This document shows positions 1 to 15,266 of a DNA stretch of 21,706 nucleotides, piece after piece. Origin of the DNA: a virus; IMG/VR virus record IMGVR_UViG_3300048835_000662, positions 1 through 21,706 of that record. One strand, written 5' to 3'. Numbering within the stretch: the stretch's first letter is position 1; every line of letters starts with the position of its first letter. Position numbers and translations under genes: made by a program. The notes beneath the pieces were generated by a model. The model was not told where the DNA came from, made no database searches, and worked only from the letters and a program-made list of their open reading frames with translations.

Positions 1-14
1 TCGTCCCCAAAAGC

Positions 15-3000
15 ATGAGCGAACAGGACGCCCGCATCACGCTGGTCAACGGGTTCTTCAGTGAGTGCCTGCCGCGCATCCGCCGCGTGCTCGACGTGCC
101 GGTTCCCCACCTCACCGATGACGGCAAGCTCGTCTATCCGAAACCGGGGTATGACGAACGGTTCGAAACCTGGCTCAACCCGCACGCGCCACAACTCAAG
201 ACGATGGGCCACAGCGAGGCCCTGCGCTGGCTGCTCCAGGATCTCTTCGGTCTGCCCGAGCATGGCGGGTTCTGGTGGCATGACGAACAATCGCGCATTC
301 ATGCCCTGGCCCGGTTCATCACCCCGTTCTGCCGCGGACTGATGGGCTGGCGGCGCACTCCCCTCTGGATCTTCGACGGCAACCGCGAAGGCTGCGGCAA
401 GGACACCTGCGCCGACCTCACCCACATCGCCTACACCGGCCGGTCGATCATCTGCGCCCCGCTCTCCAAGGAATGCGACGATGAAATGCGCAAACGCATC
501 ACCTCCGCGCTGATGGCCGGCAGCCGTTTCTTCCACCTGGCCAACATGAAGGGGCACGTCCGCTATGCCTCGCTCGAAGCAGCCACCGACAACTCGGGCG
601 TTTGGGAGGACCGCCGCCTCGGCGTGAGTGAAACGCTCACCCTGCCCAACGAAACCGAATTCTCGTTCTCCGCCAACAACGCCACCTGGGAGCCGGACAT
701 CGAACGCCGCTGCCGCCGCATCCGTCTGCGATTCTCGCCCGACGACATCAACGGCCACCGCTACCGCCATATCGACATCAAGGGCTGGGTCCGCCGCCAC
801 CGCTCGGAACTTCTATCAGCCGTCTCCGCGCTGGTTTCCGAATGGGTGCGCCGGGGGTGCCCGCCTGGGCCGTCGCCATTCACCTCGTTCCCGGAATGGG
901 GGCAGGTGGTCGGCGGTATTCTCCATTGCGCCGGGTTGCCCGACCCGTGCCTGCCGCATGAAGACAGCCAGTCGTCCGGCGACCAGGCCACCAAGGCGAT
1001 GCGGGATTTCTTCATTCTGGCTTTCGATCACTTCGGCGACACCATGATTCGCAAGCCGGATTTCCAACAGTTCGTTCAACAAAACGAAGAGATTCATGAG
1101 CTGTTCGACTGGATCGATTTCGCCAGTCGGCAGGGCCAAACCAAGTTCGGCAAGCTCGTCGTGAAGTTCGACAAACGCGAACTCGGCGGCATCACGTTCC
1201 GCATCAAACAGTCGTCAAAGAACCGCGCCGATTACCGATTTTTCCGCGAGGGTGAAGGAGAACTCCCCACACGTCCCATCGAGCCATCTTCCGAGCCAAA
1301 CACGCGGGGACATGGTGACATTTGGGGACATTCTCATACGGCTTATATAAGAGAAATAAATGACGATGAAAAAAATAAAAAACAGAGTGCATTAAATGAT
1401 CTCTATATAGGTGATAGGCAAACGTCCCCAAATATCCCCATGTCCCCGCGAGGAGTTTTCTGCTCCCTCCGCGCCGACCTCGACAGCATCGCCCTCGACC
1501 TCAAGGACGCCAGCCGCATCGCACTGGACATCGAAACCTACGGTGAACGCAAGGGCGACGGACTTGACCCATGGAAGGGCGACATCCGCCTGCTCACCCT
1601 CTGCCGTCACGGTGGCACCATCTGGACCATCGACCTCCGGGCCGTCGGGTATGATCTCGGCCCGCTCAAGCCGATCCTCGAAGAGGCGGGCATCGTCGCC
1701 CACAACGCCAAGTTCGACCTGCTCTGGTTGCGGGTGAAGTGCGGGCTGATTGCCAAGCGCGTCCACTGCACACTCACCGCCGCCCGTCTGCTAGTGGCCG
1801 GCACCAAACCCGGCAACGACCTCGACAAATGCCTGGAACGATACCTCGGCATCGCCCCCGCCGCCGATCACAGCCGCTCCGATTGGGCGTCCATGCTGCT
1901 CACCGATGACCAGCTCGCCTACGCGGCCCGCGACGTGGCCTATCTCCACGACCTGCTCGGCACCATGGAAAGCGAGTTGGAGGCGGCCGGTCTGGACACC
2001 GTGTGGGCGCTCGAAAGCAACCTCCTGCCATGCGTGGTGGGGATGGAAGCCACGGGGATTCATCTGGATCGCGGCAAACTCGAATCCATCGCCGCCGAAG
2101 CCGACCGCCTCGCCCAACAGGCCGCCGATGATCTGCGCACGGCGCTTGGCAACCCGGCGATCAACCCGGGCAGTCCCGGCCAGGTTCTTGCCGCCCTCCG
2201 CGCCAAAGGCCTCAAACTCGAATCCACCGCCGAGGAGGCGCTCAAAGCCGCGGACGACGGACACCTGGTTCCCCTGGTGCTGGCATTCCGCGAGGCGAGC
2301 AAACGCGCCCAGCAGGCGGAATCACTGGTCGGGCACATTCAGAAAGACGGCCGTATCCACGGACGCTTCGAACCACTCGGCACCGCCACCGGTCGCTTCT
2401 CATCAAAGGAGCCGAACCTCCAGAACATCGGTCGGGGTGAGATGCGGGAAGCGTTCACCGCACCCGAGGGCAAACGCCTCATCGTCGCCGACTACTCGCA
2501 GATCGAATTGCGTGCGGCTGCGGCCATCGCGGGCGAAACCAAGATGATCGACGCCTACAAGTCCGGTGCCGATCTCCACAAGCTCACCGCCGCCACCGTG
2601 CTCGACAAACCCGAGGATCAGGTGACGAAATCGGATAGACAGTTGGCAAAGGCGGTGAACTTCGGCCTCATCTACGGCCAATCCGCCCCGGGCCTCGTTA
2701 GATACGCCGCCACCTCCTACGGCGTGACGATGGAGGAAGAAGAAGCGTTTGCAATCCGCACCACGTTCTTCCGCACCTACTCGCGTCTCCGCCAGTGGCA
2801 CGGCACCAGCCACAATCAGGCAGAATCGGGCGTCACCGAAGTCCGCACGCGCACCGGCCGCCGCCGACTGATTCCGACAACCGCCAGCGAGTGGGAACGC
2901 TTCACCGCGCTGGTCAACACCCCGGTCCAGGGCGGCACCGCCGACGGCATGAAACACGCCCTCATTCTGATCCACGACCGGCTGCCAAAATCCGCCCGCA

Positions 3001-3167
3001 TCGTCTCCACCGTCCATGACGAGGTGGTCGTCGAGTGCCGCGAGGAATCCGCCGACGAGTGCCGGGAAATCATCACGACCGCAATGGTCGAAGCCATGGC
3101 CGCCCTCTTCCCCGAGGTGCCGGTCGAAGTTGAAGCGAATGTCTGCACCACCTGGGCCGAAAAATGA
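15..3167 (+). CDS. Primase-helicase-type ATPase fused to DNA polymerase I core (possibly 5' partial)
   Basis: Two enzymes sit in one 1050-aa reading frame. The N-terminal half resembles the helicase part of phage primase-helicases: a P-loop variant GNREGCGKDT at residues 122-131 (Asp where Ser/Thr is usual), then a sensor-like SANN and an Arg-rich RRCRRIRLR stretch. After a linker at about 430-480 comes a family A polymerase lacking the 5'-3' exonuclease. Its DnaQ-type proofreading domain shows D505/E507, N564/D568 and Y636/D640. Polymerase motif A has D826 and E831, motif B has R875, K879, F883 and Y887, and motif C is HDE at 1001-1003, so all catalytic residues are present. The likely role is phage genome replication, combining unwinding and synthesis. 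The frame is open to the left window edge, so a primase domain may lie upstream and the ATG at 15 may be internal. It heads an operon and overlaps the next gene by ATGA. Confidence 0.88.
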   Translation: MSEQDARITLVNGFFSECLPRIRRVLDVPVPHLTDDGKLVYPKPGYDERFETWLNPHAPQLKTMGHSEALRWLLQDLFGLPEHGGFWWHDEQSRIHALARFITPFCRGLMGWRRTPLWIFDGNREGCGKDTCADLTHIAYTGRSIICAPLSKECDDEMRKRITSALMAGSRFFHLANMKGHVRYASLEAATDNSGVWEDRRLGVSETLTLPNETEFSFSANNATWEPDIERRCRRIRLRFSPDDINGHRYRHIDIKGWVRRHRSELLSAVSALVSEWVRRGCPPGPSPFTSFPEWGQVVGGILHCAGLPDPCLPHEDSQSSGDQATKAMRDFFILAFDHFGDTMIRKPDFQQFVQQNEEIHELFDWIDFASRQGQTKFGKLVVKFDKRELGGITFRIKQSSKNRADYRFFREGEGELPTRPIEPSSEPNTRGHGDIWGHSHTAYIREINDDEKNKKQSALNDLYIGDRQTSPNIPMSPRGVFCSLRADLDSIALDLKDASRIALDIETYGERKGDGLDPWKGDIRLLTLCRHGGTIWTIDLRAVGYDLGPLKPILEEAGIVAHNAKFDLLWLRVKCGLIAKRVHCTLTAARLLVAGTKPGNDLDKCLERYLGIAPAADHSRSDWASMLLTDDQLAYAARDVAYLHDLLGTMESELEAAGLDTVWALESNLLPCVVGMEATGIHLDRGKLESIAAEADRLAQQAADDLRTALGNPAINPGSPGQVLAALRAKGLKLESTAEEALKAADDGHLVPLVLAFREASKRAQQAESLVGHIQKDGRIHGRFEPLGTATGRFSSKEPNLQNIGRGEMREAFTAPEGKRLIVADYSQIELRAAAAIAGETKMIDAYKSGADLHKLTAATVLDKPEDQVTKSDRQLAKAVNFGLIYGQSAPGLVRYAATSYGVTMEEEEAFAIRTTFFRTYSRLRQWHGTSHNQAESGVTEVRTRTGRRRLIPTTASEWERFTALVNTPVQGGTADGMKHALILIHDRLPKSARIVSTVHDEVVVECREESADECREIITTAMVEAMAALFPEVPVEVEANVCTTWAEK
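1303..1450. repeat. Intragenic inverted repeat with iteron-like heptamers flanking an AT-rich core
   Basis: Arms at 1303-1332 and 1421-1450 are reverse complements at 27 of 30 positions. Each arm contains three GGGGACA-type heptamers: 1306, 1314 and 1324 on the left, and their complements at 1423, 1433 and 1441 on the right, with mirrored 8/10-base spacing. The 88 bases between are strongly AT-rich with several A-runs, in a gene otherwise near 60% GC. The block remains in frame and encodes a hydrophilic linker between the helicase and polymerase halves. Iterons beside an AT-rich stretch inside a replication gene are the layout of lambdoid origins, so a phage origin is a reasonable inference. 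An in-frame insertion of a small inverted-repeat element is the alternative. Confidence 0.6.
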
Positions 3168-5969: not shown

Positions 5970-6848
5970 ATGGATTCAAAACCGCTCTCCGTCCTTGTCA
6001 CCGGTTCCTCGGGTTTCATCGGCACCCATGTCGTCCGCCAGCTCCACGAGGCGGGACACAAGGTGATGGCCCTCGATCAGATGCCACCGAAGGAACCGCT
6101 TCCCGTCGGCGTCCGGATTTACGCCTGCGACATTCGCCAGGGAATGCTGCCCAACGGTGGCTTCGATGCCGTCGTCCATCTGGCCGCGCTCGCCGGTGTC
6201 CGCCCCTCGATGGACCGCCAGATGGATTACGAAATCACCAACGTCGTCGGCACTCTCCGCCTTCTGGATCACTGTCGCCGCTTCGGCACGCCCCATTTCG
6301 TGTTCGCCTCGTCGTCCAGCGTCTATGGACCGAACACACCGCTGCCGGCCGAGGAATCGGCAACGCCCGACCCGTGCAGCCCCTACGCGCTGACCAAACT
6401 CCACGGCGAGCACTGGGGCCGACTCTACTCCCGCCTCCACGGTCTGCGTTTCCTCGCGTTGCGGTTCTTCTCCGTCTGGGGTCCCGGCCAGCGCCCAGAC
6501 CTTGCCCTGGAAGCGTTCCGCCGCCGGATTGAAGCAGGCAAACCCGTCGTCATCAACGGCGACGGCAGTCAACGCCGCGACCTCACCCATGTTTCCGACG
6601 TTGCCCGGGCGGTCGAACTGGCGCTTCACTGGCCTGGTCCCGGATCGGCCGTCCTGAACGTCGGCACCGGCAAAAACCACTCCGTCATGGACATGCTGGC
6701 AGCCGCCACGAAAACCGTAGCGCCACTGGTGGAGCACCAAGCGCCCCATCCGGCGGACGTTCCGGAAACCCTCGCGTCGATCAGGGCCGTCGGGGTGGAA
6801 CTCGGCTGGCAGCCCCGGATTGCCTTCCCGGACGGGCCGGTTTCCTGA
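5970..6848 (+). CDS. NAD-dependent sugar-nucleotide epimerase/dehydratase (C-terminus probably frameshifted)
   Basis: An extended short-chain dehydrogenase of 292 aa. The NAD-binding TGSSGFIGTH is at 11-20, an Asp at the end of the second strand (ALDQM) at about 36, the catalytic Ser in the FASSSSVYG segment at 114-117, and the YALTK pair is Y139/K143. A GDGSQRRDLTHVSDVA segment near 190-205 is typical of UDP-glucuronate or UDP-glucose 4-epimerases. It probably interconverts a nucleotide sugar for surface polysaccharide or glycan synthesis in the cytosol. The frame ends abruptly at AFPDGPVS. The +2 frame continues AGFLTFVAHGF, resembling the expected final helix, so a one-base indel near 6831-6840 may have trimmed the protein. 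Within a phage it would be a cargo (moron) gene. Confidence 0.85.
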   Translation: MDSKPLSVLVTGSSGFIGTHVVRQLHEAGHKVMALDQMPPKEPLPVGVRIYACDIRQGMLPNGGFDAVVHLAALAGVRPSMDRQMDYEITNVVGTLRLLDHCRRFGTPHFVFASSSSVYGPNTPLPAEESATPDPCSPYALTKLHGEHWGRLYSRLHGLRFLALRFFSVWGPGQRPDLALEAFRRRIEAGKPVVINGDGSQRRDLTHVSDVARAVELALHWPGPGSAVLNVGTGKNHSVMDMLAAATKTVAPLVEHQAPHPADVPETLASIRAVGVELGWQPRIAFPDGPVS

Positions 6849-10964: not shown

Positions 10965-11591
10965 TCAGGTGTCCGGGTTGCCGCAGGTGTCCGGGAGATC
11001 GAGAAAGGGCTTGGGGCGGCGCTTGGAGTGGGAAGGGGCGGGAGCTTTCAACAAATGGGCGAAGTTGAGATTGCTCGCCCTCATGCCGCGCCAGTCGCTC
11101 CAGTCGCCGTAGAGTTCGGTGAAGTCGCGGTCGAAGAACACCCAGCGGCCGGGAAGCCGGTCCAGGACGTCCGGGCCGCAGAGATCGACCATGGACGCGA
11201 CAACGCGGCTGTCGGAAAGCAGGCCGTCGGGAATGCGGTTCCGTGGCATTCGCCGCAGGGTTTCCCGCCACTGCCCCCAAGTGCCGTTGTGAAACAGGAC
11301 GGCGCGAGCCTGGCCGGAAAGGCGGGTGTTGGCTTTGGCGGAAACCGGGAATGGATGGCACAGCTTCGGCGTCACCTCCCCCACGCTCGCCCAGCGGAAA
11401 TGAATCACGATCTCACCCGATAGTCCGGCGATCAGCGGTTCGATTCCTCCTGGTTCGATTCCCTTGAACCATCTCACCACTCCATCTTCCCGCCATGCCA
11501 CACCGGCACCGTGGGGATTCGCCTCATGGCAGGCGGCGATGGTGGCGCTGTCAGGGCGCACGTTCTCAGGGCATACAAGGATCACACACAT
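10965..11591 (-). CDS. Class II glutamine amidotransferase-like (Ntn hydrolase)
   Basis: A 208-aa protein that begins MCVILV, so Met removal exposes Cys2 as the nucleophile of class II (Ntn) glutaminases. Family features follow in order: NPHGAGVAW at about 25-33, IHFRWASVGEV near 63-73, HPFPVS near 83, and LFHNGTWGQW near 99-108. The enzyme would hydrolyse glutamine and pass ammonia to a partner, and no synthetase domain is fused. The neighbouring amidoligase, transcribed just before it, is the obvious acceptor. The last 35 residues are Pro/Lys-rich and probably disordered. Confidence 0.75.
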   Translation of the reverse strand: MCVILVCPENVRPDSATIAACHEANPHGAGVAWREDGVVRWFKGIEPGGIEPLIAGLSGEIVIHFRWASVGEVTPKLCHPFPVSAKANTRLSGQARAVLFHNGTWGQWRETLRRMPRNRIPDGLLSDSRVVASMVDLCGPDVLDRLPGRWVFFDRDFTELYGDWSDWRGMRASNLNFAHLLKAPAPSHSKRRPKPFLDLPDTCGNPDT

Positions 11592-11617
11592 GGCTTTGGA
11601 TTTCGGTTAGGGGACTT

Positions 11618-12691
11618 TTAGAGATTGGCGGAGGGGAAGCGTTCATCGAAGCGGCGGCACATCCGTTCGGCGACTTTCCGATAGGTCTTGAACTCGGAGT
11701 GAAGGGGGCCGAACAAACCCAGTGCGACTTCGCGCTTGCTGCCGGTCCATCCGAGGTAATCCCAGAGAAAGCGCAGGGCGCTGGTGGCGGTGGCCGTGCG
11801 TTTCGCCTGCGCCTTGTTTTTCGAAAAACTGCCGAGGCATTCGATTTCGGCGGCGCGGCGGCAGAGCCCCAACACCGTGGCGAGGTGGTGGAGCAACTTC
11901 TGGCTGTTGAGCGTTCCGGCAAACACCCGGAATTCGATCACACCGTGGGAAAAGAGTTTTTTGAAGTTCACCATTCCCCGTCCGCAGCGGGTGGCGGTGT
12001 CGGCTTTCACGGTGAGATTGGTGGTCGTCTCCATCCGCTTGACCAAGTTGCCCACCTCGTCGCCGAGCATGTGGCTGTAGCGGTTCAGGTGGCGTCCGGT
12101 GCCCGTCTGGCCGTAGAGGCTCATGGCGTGCCACCGGGCGATGTGCGCGAGCTTGCGGGCAAATTCGCTCAATGCCTGCGGCTCGTTGGAACCGATGATG
12201 GACTCCACGCCCACGGTGATGTGGCAGCCGCACGAGCCGTTCACGTTCGCCCCGATGGCGTTGGCCCACTCGACGAATTGAAGCAGGTGCTCGACGCCCT
12301 CGCTGCCTTTGAGGATGGGCGAGACAAACTCGCAGGCCTTGCTTCCTGGATGGACGAGAATGGAACCGTCGCGCTCGGCCTTCCAGTAGTTGCCGTGAAA
12401 GGTGGGTGCGCTAAGGCGCTGGTTGGTTGCGGTCTCAATGCCCTCGACGACGGAAGTGCCGAAGTGATATGCGCCTACTCCGACATCGGACGCGGCAGGG
12501 ATGGTAGTTTCGAGTTCAACTCCGAAGGTGATGGATTCGGCTTTGGGATCTTGCGGTTTCATCTGTGGATCTGGATGGGGATCTGGTGCCGGTTGGCGCA
12601 GGTTGTCCGCGTTCCGACATCCTCCTTCCTGCCAGCCATCCGCGTCGTTTGTCGCGCGCCATCCGCACGCCAGTTCGCACCAAATTTTCAC
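11618..12691 (-). CDS. Putative amidoligase (glutamine-synthetase-like COOH-NH2 ligase)
   Basis: A 357-aa protein. Residues 1-30 have a Cys-containing lead (CELACG, EGGC) that may bind a metal. The catalytic domain has the amidoligase_2 pattern: FGVELETT at 57-63 with E59/E61, the YWKAERDGSI segment at 102-111 with D108, CEFVSPIL at 120-127 with E121, CGCHITVG with H157, and a late IEFRVFAGTLN strand. Such enzymes form amide bonds between a carboxylate and an amine using ATP, on peptides, proteins or small metabolites. It sits directly upstream of a glutamine amidotransferase (26-base gap), a pairing known for this family. The substrate cannot be read from sequence. Confidence 0.72.
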   Translation of the reverse strand: MKIWCELACGWRATNDADGWQEGGCRNADNLRQPAPDPHPDPQMKPQDPKAESITFGVELETTIPAASDVGVGAYHFGTSVVEGIETATNQRLSAPTFHGNYWKAERDGSILVHPGSKACEFVSPILKGSEGVEHLLQFVEWANAIGANVNGSCGCHITVGVESIIGSNEPQALSEFARKLAHIARWHAMSLYGQTGTGRHLNRYSHMLGDEVGNLVKRMETTTNLTVKADTATRCGRGMVNFKKLFSHGVIEFRVFAGTLNSQKLLHHLATVLGLCRRAAEIECLGSFSKNKAQAKRTATATSALRFLWDYLGWTGSKREVALGLFGPLHSEFKTYRKVAERMCRRFDERFPSANL

Positions 12692-13843: not shown

Positions 13844-14635
13844 TCACAGCTTCACCGATTGGCGGCGTGGGGCATCCATCGCCACGCGGTCCTGGCTCTT
13901 GTAGGTTTCGAGGCGGATGTGGGCCTTCCACTTGCGCTTGAGGTATCGCTTCTCGGTGGCGATGCGTTCCTCGCTGCGGAACAGGCTGTTGCCGCCGAGG
14001 TTCTTGTCGCGCTCCTGGACAAAGCAGAATCGCGCCTCGTTCCAGACGAGACGATTGTCCATGAGTTCCTGGAGCGTGGCGTCGATGTCGCACTTGCACT
14101 TGAGCAGCTCGTCCCACTTCGGCACGCCGCCTTTTTCATCGCGCACCACGCCGACCGCACCGCCGACCCAGTGGTTCACACCGAACGGATCGTTGCGTTG
14201 CAGAAGCCGCGGATCGCTCCGCTGGTGCCAGCCGAACAACCGAGCCCCTGCTCCACGTGCACACCACGCCGAGTTTTCGAGCATTGCAATGGTTTCGGCC
14301 ACGGAGAGTTTCCGGCAACGAAGGCTCACCATGCAAACGCACGCGGAAATATCGTCGTCGAGCATCACGATGGCGTCATCGGTGAAGTGCTTGAGCACCC
14401 AGTTCCGCACGGCGCTGATGCCGGCGATCTCGTCAGGGATGGTTTCGATTTCCAGCCCGGTGTGGCGGTAATGCTCAGCCTCGCTTGCGGGAACGAGCAG
14501 CGTCGCCGTCGGGAACAGCTTGTGACTGGTGATCGAGCGGCTTCGACTCCGCGACAGGATCACCAGGCGGAGTTTCAAGGGGCGGAATTCCGGCCATGCT
14601 GGCGCGGCGGCAGAGTTCAATGAGTCGTTTTCCAT
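13844..14635 (-). CDS. GT-A-like glycosyltransferase (phage type)
   Basis: A protein of about 263 aa from ATG 14635; the frame is open to 14689, and a TTG at 14578 starts just before the conserved part. Features in order: first strand RLVILSRSRS, a second strand ATLLVPASEAEHY, IETIPDEIAGISAVRNWVL, and the metal-binding LDDD after AIVML (about 92-95), as in GT-A fold enzymes with a DxD motif. The later part has HWVGGAVGVV and a helical tail. It resembles glycosyltransferases that phages use to decorate modified DNA bases (TAGT-like). The acceptor is unproven. It overlaps the end of the ParB-like gene by about 160 bases. Confidence 0.65.
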   Translation of the reverse strand: MENDSLNSAAAPAWPEFRPLKLRLVILSRSRSRSITSHKLFPTATLLVPASEAEHYRHTGLEIETIPDEIAGISAVRNWVLKHFTDDAIVMLDDDISACVCMVSLRCRKLSVAETIAMLENSAWCARGAGARLFGWHQRSDPRLLQRNDPFGVNHWVGGAVGVVRDEKGGVPKWDELLKCKCDIDATLQELMDNRLVWNEARFCFVQERDKNLGGNSLFRSEERIATEKRYLKRKWKAHIRLETYKSQDRVAMDAPRRQSVKL

Positions 14636-15266
14636 GGAGCACACGGCCAATGCCGATTTTTTTGGTTCTGCGGGTGATCGAGTAGTCAACCTCGCGCACC
14701 CCCATGAGTTGAAGCACCTGCATCCAGTCGCGCAGGTCGTGGAACATGAACACGAGGTAGTCGTGGGTCTCGAATGCCTGACATTCCATCCGGGGGATCG
14801 TTTCGAGTTCGTCCTCCGGATTGGCCTCGTCGTCCATCAGCTTGCGGATCTCGTCCTCCATGAAGCCGGTCAGTTCGATGTCGAAGTCGGGATCGGCGTC
14901 GACGATGGATTTGAGCACCCTCCGCAGGTCGTCTTCATCGAGTTCGGCGAGTTCAGATAGACGGTTGTCCGCAAGCAAGTCGGCGAGTTCCTCCGCTTCG
15001 CTGGCATAGTCCTGTTCATCCACGGGGATCGTTTCGCAGCCGATCAAGAGCGCGGCTTCCAGGCGGCCGTGACCGCGGACGATCAGCCCCGAGCGTTTCG
15101 AGACGGTGACCGGATTGCGCCAACCCTGCTCCTGGATGATCGAGGCGAGAAGCTGAATCTGGTGAGCGCTGTGCCGGTTCGGGTTGACCGGGTTGGGTTT
15201 CAGCGTGTTCGGATCAACGAGGCGGGTGTGGGCGCAATGCACGGGAATGCTCATGGCCAATGCCAA
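14475..15266 (-). CDS. ParB-like nuclease/CTPase-domain protein
   Basis: A 263-aa protein. The N-terminal ParB/sulfiredoxin domain has LVDPNTLKPNPVNPNRHS, then LLASIIQEQGWRNPVTV, and the signature GHGRLEAAL at 65-73, followed by PVDEQDYASEAEELADLLADNR. A middle helical segment (DDLRRVLKSIVDADPDFD) precedes a second conserved-looking domain ending KKIGIGRVLHGKRLIEL. This two-part form occurs in phage ParB proteins beside DNA-modification genes rather than in chromosome-partition ParBs. It may bind or sense DNA. It is the first gene of the minus operon; M5 at 15254 is an alternative start. The last 40 residues overlap the glycosyltransferase gene and look disordered. Confidence 0.75.
   Translation of the reverse strand: MALAMSIPVHCAHTRLVDPNTLKPNPVNPNRHSAHQIQLLASIIQEQGWRNPVTVSKRSGLIVRGHGRLEAALLIGCETIPVDEQDYASEAEELADLLADNRLSELAELDEDDLRRVLKSIVDADPDFDIELTGFMEDEIRKLMDDEANPEDELETIPRMECQAFETHDYLVFMFHDLRDWMQVLQLMGVREVDYSITRRTKKIGIGRVLHGKRLIELCRRASMAGIPPLETPPGDPVAESKPLDHQSQAVPDGDAARSRKRG

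Follow-up and report, generated by a model that had tools for sequence, protein, structure and literature searches.

Here, we describe an inverted array of short repeats that is translated in frame within a phage replication gene and that very probably serves a Verrucomicrobia phage as its replication origin, or as the core of one, lying inside the gene of its own initiator. The array occupies positions 1303-1450 of virus record IMGVR_UViG_3300048835_000662, which was analysed as a single stretch of 21.7 kb (the window) and has relatives in Verrucomicrobia contigs, mostly those of Akkermansiaceae. A sequence-only reading had put a candidate origin at this place, and the proposal fits all of the sequence evidence assembled below. 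The features concerned are these:

15-3164, plus strand: ORF encoding helicase, exonuclease and polymerase, the 3′ two thirds of the gene (ORF call, Pfam)
about 15-1250, plus strand: predicted D5/SF3-like helicase part (AlphaFold2 model and fold match)
984-1244 (aa 324-410), plus strand: predicted C-terminal winged helix of the helicase (secondary structure of the AlphaFold2 model)
aa 372-384, plus strand: putative recognition helix of the winged helix, in which residues 375 and 376 co-vary with the iteron (co-variation)
1303-1450, no strand: whole element, candidate replication origin, in frame (inverted repeat, spacer GC, paired change)
1304-1331, plus strand: left arm, with GGGGACA at 1306-1312, GGTGACA at 1314-1320 and GGGGACA at 1324-1330 (start-to-start 8 and 10 bp)
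1332-1421, no strand: AT-rich spacer of 90 nt, 30% GC, candidate unwinding element
1422-1449, minus strand: right arm, read on that strand as GGGGACA at 1441-1447, GGGGATA at 1433-1439 and GGGGACG at 1423-1429
aa 488-656, plus strand: DNA_pol_A_exo1, 3′-5′ exonuclease (Pfam)
aa 689-1049, plus strand: DNA_pol_A, family A DNA polymerase (Pfam)

The gene is the first ORF of the window, with a reading frame open from base 3 to 3164 that passes through the element without any shift. It is cut by the left end of the window; in relatives it starts approximately 420 codons earlier, and the additional N-terminal residues contain a Prim-Pol domain (present, for example, in the full-length relative L004), so that the complete protein would be a primase-helicase-exonuclease-polymerase of approximately 1470 residues. 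The helicase part is not recognised in a Pfam search of the ORF. An AlphaFold2 model of it (mean pLDDT 82) has an AAA+ core followed by a C-terminal winged helix that stops just upstream of the linker, and its best fold match is PriRep1 of SaPI5 (7ola: Z 12.4, rmsd 5.6 over 303; 7om0: Z 12.2), with mpox E5/vaccinia D5, AsfvPrimPol and the C-terminal region of the NrS-1 primase-polymerase among the other top matches. The fold predicted for the helicase part is thus that of D5 and SaPI5 PriRep1, ending in a winged helix, and the encoded protein combines Prim-Pol (seen in the full-length relatives), helicase and winged helix (the latter two by model and fold match). Elsewhere, the phage carries an NAD-dependent epimerase gene of the UDP-sugar epimerase type (5970-6845, plus strand), and the stretches 10968-12691 and 13847-14689 (both minus strand) contain GATase_6 adjoining Amidoligase_2 and, nearby, a TET-associated glycosyltransferase (TAGT), possibly a set for DNA or cell-wall modification.

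The element lies between the helicase and the exonuclease-polymerase parts of this one ORF. In the core register (arms 1304-1331 and 1422-1449) the arms match at 25 of 28 positions, and longer arms (1303-1349 and 1404-1450) show a 79% match over 47 nt. Among all 28-nt inverted repeats of the window whose arms lie 50-130 nt apart, this one ranks first – the runner-up elsewhere scores 20 – and the best inverted repeat in each of 30 Markov-simulated windows reaches 19-21 of 28. With a spacer GC of 0.30 vs 0.63 for the gene, the initial description of mirrored repeats around an AT-rich core, in frame within a GC-rich replication gene, is confirmed. Its account of the repeats as triplets of GGGGACA-type heptamers holds for the mirrored arrangement and its location, but exact GGGGACA accounts for only three of the six arm units, the other three being variants. 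The heptamer itself is not in excess in the window (4 copies vs 3.6 expected), and it is the mirrored arrangement, not the heptamer count, that exceeds chance.

The gene is carried by six relatives from viral contigs and 16 from bacterial assemblies, and the element is found at the same place in all 17 relatives whose sequence covers both arms. The spacer measures 90 nt in all but two of the 18 genomes, which have 89 nt, and its GC content ranges from 0.30 to 0.51, vs 0.59-0.67 for the gene. The arms change in sequence yet stay mirrored, with the left arm matching its own right arm at 25.3 of 28 positions and the arms of other genomes at 19.0 (0 of 100,000 permutations). Changes on both sides occur in 17 of the 28 pairs, and 70 cells are changed on both sides vs 20 expected from shuffles, a signal that is lost when the partner is moved by one base. 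Synonymous recoding of the observed peptides never reproduces the observed symmetry (0 of 20,000 recodings in each of 16 genomes), and the linker is the least conserved part of the protein, with a mean identity of 48% for the left-arm peptide and 33% for the loop, compared with 80% for the helicase. In unrelated phages the motif is read in other frames, giving GGP, WGT or GD. The encoded peptide does not explain the arm symmetry, and the earlier suggestion that the DNA rather than the peptide is under selection is borne out; conservation of the peptide with loss of the repeats among relatives, which had been named as the contrary case, is the reverse of what is found.

In two assemblies (L048 and L050) the reading frame of the gene is interrupted, for L050 inside the spacer, although the arms are mirrored at 28 of 28 positions; the breaks may represent assembly error or a split gene. 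The shift in GC skew that an origin here had been expected to produce did not materialise, as skew does not change sign at the element in three relatives examined whole, and in a fourth genome (a prophage region) the minimum lies 3.4 kb from the element and the skew follows gene strand. GC skew neither supports nor excludes the origin reading.

The sequence of the repeats varies among relatives together with the protein. Judged by the first unit, the iterons are GGGACAT, GGGACGT, GGGACTT or GGGATGT, and when all helicase columns (about 420) are scanned against C or T at unit base 5, residue 376 is the sole column that separates the iteron types perfectly. It belongs to helix 372-384, which is number three in the winged helix. 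All seven genomes with GGGATGT have Ile at this position, all nine with GGGACAT or GGGACGT have Thr, and both with GGGACTT have Met; among those with Thr376, CA is accompanied by Gln at residue 375 and CG by Leu. When columns 375 and 376 are removed before the tree is built, there are six changes of residue 376 and six of the iteron along it, and all five supported independent pairs agree, for which the sign test alone gives p = 0.06. Of 5000 random labellings with at least five changes, 21 have a column that separates them perfectly, and the two genomes that lay outside the search also fit (L048 with Gln-Thr and GGGACAT, and L050 with Leu-Met and GGGACTT). The recognition helix of the enzyme has changed in step with its iteron sites; because the column scan is post hoc, the residue-376 code is a strong lead, not proof. 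On this evidence, the helicase's own winged helix can be proposed as the protein that binds the element.

The element has counterparts among known origins. The analogy with lambdoid origins drawn in the sequence-only reading extends to the architecture only: as with oriO in lambda gene O, iterons and an AT-rich stretch lie inside the initiator gene. In lambda, host DnaB is recruited by a stand-alone initiator, O, and the oriO iterons are direct repeats on one side of the AT-rich part; unlike lambda O, the window protein is a D5-type helicase fused to a polymerase, and not a lambda O homologue with a DnaB loader. The repA origin of N15, PY54 and phiKO2 lies within the 3′ part of a primase-helicase gene, the position that the window element also has, and no comparable inverted triplets were found near the repA 3′ end of N15 and PY54. 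With an initiator of the Prim-Pol/D5-type helicase class, the closer precedents are pRN1, BPP-1/BIP-1 and the SaPI origins.

In pRN1, replication depends on a 100-nt stem-loop that follows orf904; it is functional when moved, and function is lost when the stem is broken and regained with a compensating change (Berkner et al. 2014, PMC4234260). The same authors describe a like structure in phage BIP-1, propose that replication proteins of this kind assemble at stem-loops, and describe pRN1 as being without iterons (PMC4234260). The phage sequence read for our own comparison was that of BPP-1. The arms of the pRN1 stem-loop consist of two GGACA units 9 bp apart, and those of the BPP-1 stem-loop of two exact AAACGAGGC units, also 9 bp apart (L095 3085-3184 and L096 1108-1211 for pRN1 and BPP-1), so that both stem-loops are mirrored iteron arrays too. 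The window element shares with pRN1, BIP-1 and BPP-1 a protein with Prim-Pol, helicase and winged helix, an inverted repeat with an AT-rich spacer at the helicase 3′ end, and a sequence that is poorly kept while its symmetry is kept. It differs in lying within the coding region with three units per arm, rather than outside the gene with two as in pRN1 and BPP-1, and in its 90 nt spacer, vs about 58 to 73 nt. Moreover, unlike in pRN1, there is no stop codon before the element and the gene continues for approximately 570 codons past it, into the DNA polymerase. Being in a coding region upstream of a fused polymerase, the element is a variant of the pRN1 type and not a plain member.

The helicases of SaPI and SCCmec elements (SaPI5 PriRep1, Cch2) recognise, through their C-terminal domain, iterons directly downstream of their own gene, and deletion of the SCCmec inverted repeats leaves Cch2 binding unaffected (PMC7581432). 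The window protein resembles them as a D5-type helicase with a putative C-terminal DNA-binding domain, SaPI5 PriRep1 being the closest solved fold. Short repeated sites are likewise present, and their co-change with the recognition helix supports recognition by the helicase C-terminal domain; the SaPI and SCCmec origins follow the gene, unlike the window element, which lies within it.

Similar arrays are present in other phages. Blind pattern searches of viral contigs, in which two mirrored pairs of either GGGGAC or GGTGAC were required, yielded 24 and 27 stretches, and a scrambled pattern of equal composition yielded one; a match in a collagen-like coding repeat (L023) was discarded as chance. 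Where a gene could be assigned, most of the arrays are located within the 3′ end of a replication primase-helicase or just past it, and these enzymes belong to different families: Toprim_3/DUF7146 (L033, L021), Prim-Pol (L020), VapE (L057, L078), DUF927 with a Cch helix-turn-helix (L013), DUF5906 (L059, L073), Prim-Pol with DUF3987 (L071), and the PHROG families of the window's own helicase (L015, L022, L029, L030, L060, L061). In some of these other phages the array is located downstream of the stop codon. When VapE-type genes were picked blind to the motif, an inverted repeat of at least 17/20 was found near the 3′ end in 19 of 77, vs 1 of 77 inside the gene and 3 of 71 further downstream, and the arms are tandem units, most of them 8-10 bp apart.

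The spacers are not all alike. In L033 (8600-8888) and its relatives, which are of the Toprim type, the spacer contains a GC-rich alternating purine-pyrimidine run (CACATGCGCATGCGCGCACACGCGCACG) and is not AT-rich, so an AT-rich spacer is not general. In a group of related phages (L055, L058/L075, L062/L080 and L072/L076), long GGTGAC palindromes lie beside an exonuclease-type gene and enclose a second palindrome, GGTATCC, in their core, and three of these phages carry two of the long palindromes on one contig; these may be operators or paired origins, and perhaps a different thing altogether. Mirrored GGTGAC arrays are also found in short intergenic stretches near terminase-like genes, and not near a recognised helicase, in L065, L067, L069, L077 and L079.

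Several other explanations of the window element need to be weighed against an origin. An mRNA hairpin steering translation between the helicase and polymerase parts – by pausing, frameshifting, separate initiation or cleavage – would keep its stem through paired changes, and the single strand is indeed predicted to fold into a strong stem (z -7.8), with textbook paired change in the arms. However, an RNA stem drifting by single steps should favour G-U, and the absence of any such preference among the stem mismatches (G-T 6, A-C 9, other 29) argues against it, as do the open frame, the tandem units that change in step with a DNA-recognition helix, and the arrays that lie past a stop codon in other phages. 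Rfam and tRNA searches with the element found nothing, and the RNA stem was set aside as improbable. About equally improbable is that the repeats serve autoregulation or some other DNA transaction of the same protein, as an operator, a partition/incompatibility locus or a terminus. Binding by the encoded winged helix would then be identical, and iterons often double in copy control, as in iteron plasmids. Against this, the arrays are located inside or after the 3′ end of the gene and not at a promoter, and the mirrored clusters flank a long AT-rich spacer. In addition, pRN1 depends for its replication on a stem-loop of like build, which keeps its function at a new position (PMC4234260).

We regard two further explanations as having very little chance of being correct. 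A palindromic stretch that is AT-rich and in frame within a GC-rich gene could be a mobile element (MITE, REP or a Rickettsia-type palindromic insert), but its position is constant in all relatives with a near-invariant spacer length, and no second copy was found in phage contigs or in four host assemblies (3.5-7 Mb), where leftover matches have E of about 0.1 or weaker; MITE and REP elements were rejected on this absence of dispersed copies. A low-complexity protein linker with codon bias that is symmetric by accident agrees with the poor peptide conservation, but this reading was rejected too, given the recoding null excluded in 16 of 16 genomes and the paired change.

A replication origin thus remains the preferred reading, and from the sequences we infer binding, melting, ring loading, priming and origin function. 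The winged helix of the Prim-Pol/D5-type helicase would bind the GGGA[C/T]NT iterons, and oppositely oriented helicase rings would be loaded at the two mirrored three-site clusters, one on each side of the spacer. The AT-rich spacer would then melt, its exposed strands would be primed by the Prim-Pol domain, and the family A polymerase that forms the downstream part of the fusion could extend the primers. Mirrored sites that are read by a protein do not on their own call for the middle unit to pair with its partner position by position; such pairing fits a hairpin or cruciform role and homogenisation by template switching equally well.

Beyond this phage, we lean towards the view that helicases of the Prim-Pol/D5/VapE family, in phages of bacteria as well as in plasmids of archaea, share a common and as yet unnamed type of origin, in which tandem 8-10 bp iterons form mirrored clusters of two or three on the two sides of a spacer of about 60-130 nt. 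Such origins would be located at the 3′ end of the initiator gene, either within it or just past it, would be rewritten together with one or two recognition-helix residues, and in this Verrucomicrobia lineage would be translated as a linker. Two separate literatures, one on the stem-loop origins of pRN1 and BIP-1 and one on the iteron origins of SaPI and SCCmec, would be joined under one build. What is unusual here is a probable origin translated inside a fused primase-helicase-polymerase gene, together with what appears to be a readable recognition code, and the element offers an example of a coding stretch selected for its DNA symmetry and not its peptide. The Thr/Met/Ile376 rule makes initiator-origin specificity open to direct test with natural protein and DNA variants and, with iterons apparently rewritten along with recognition-helix residues, origin sites could be predicted from protein sequence. 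For these uncultured phages, known from sequence alone, the analysis provides both a candidate origin and its putative reader.
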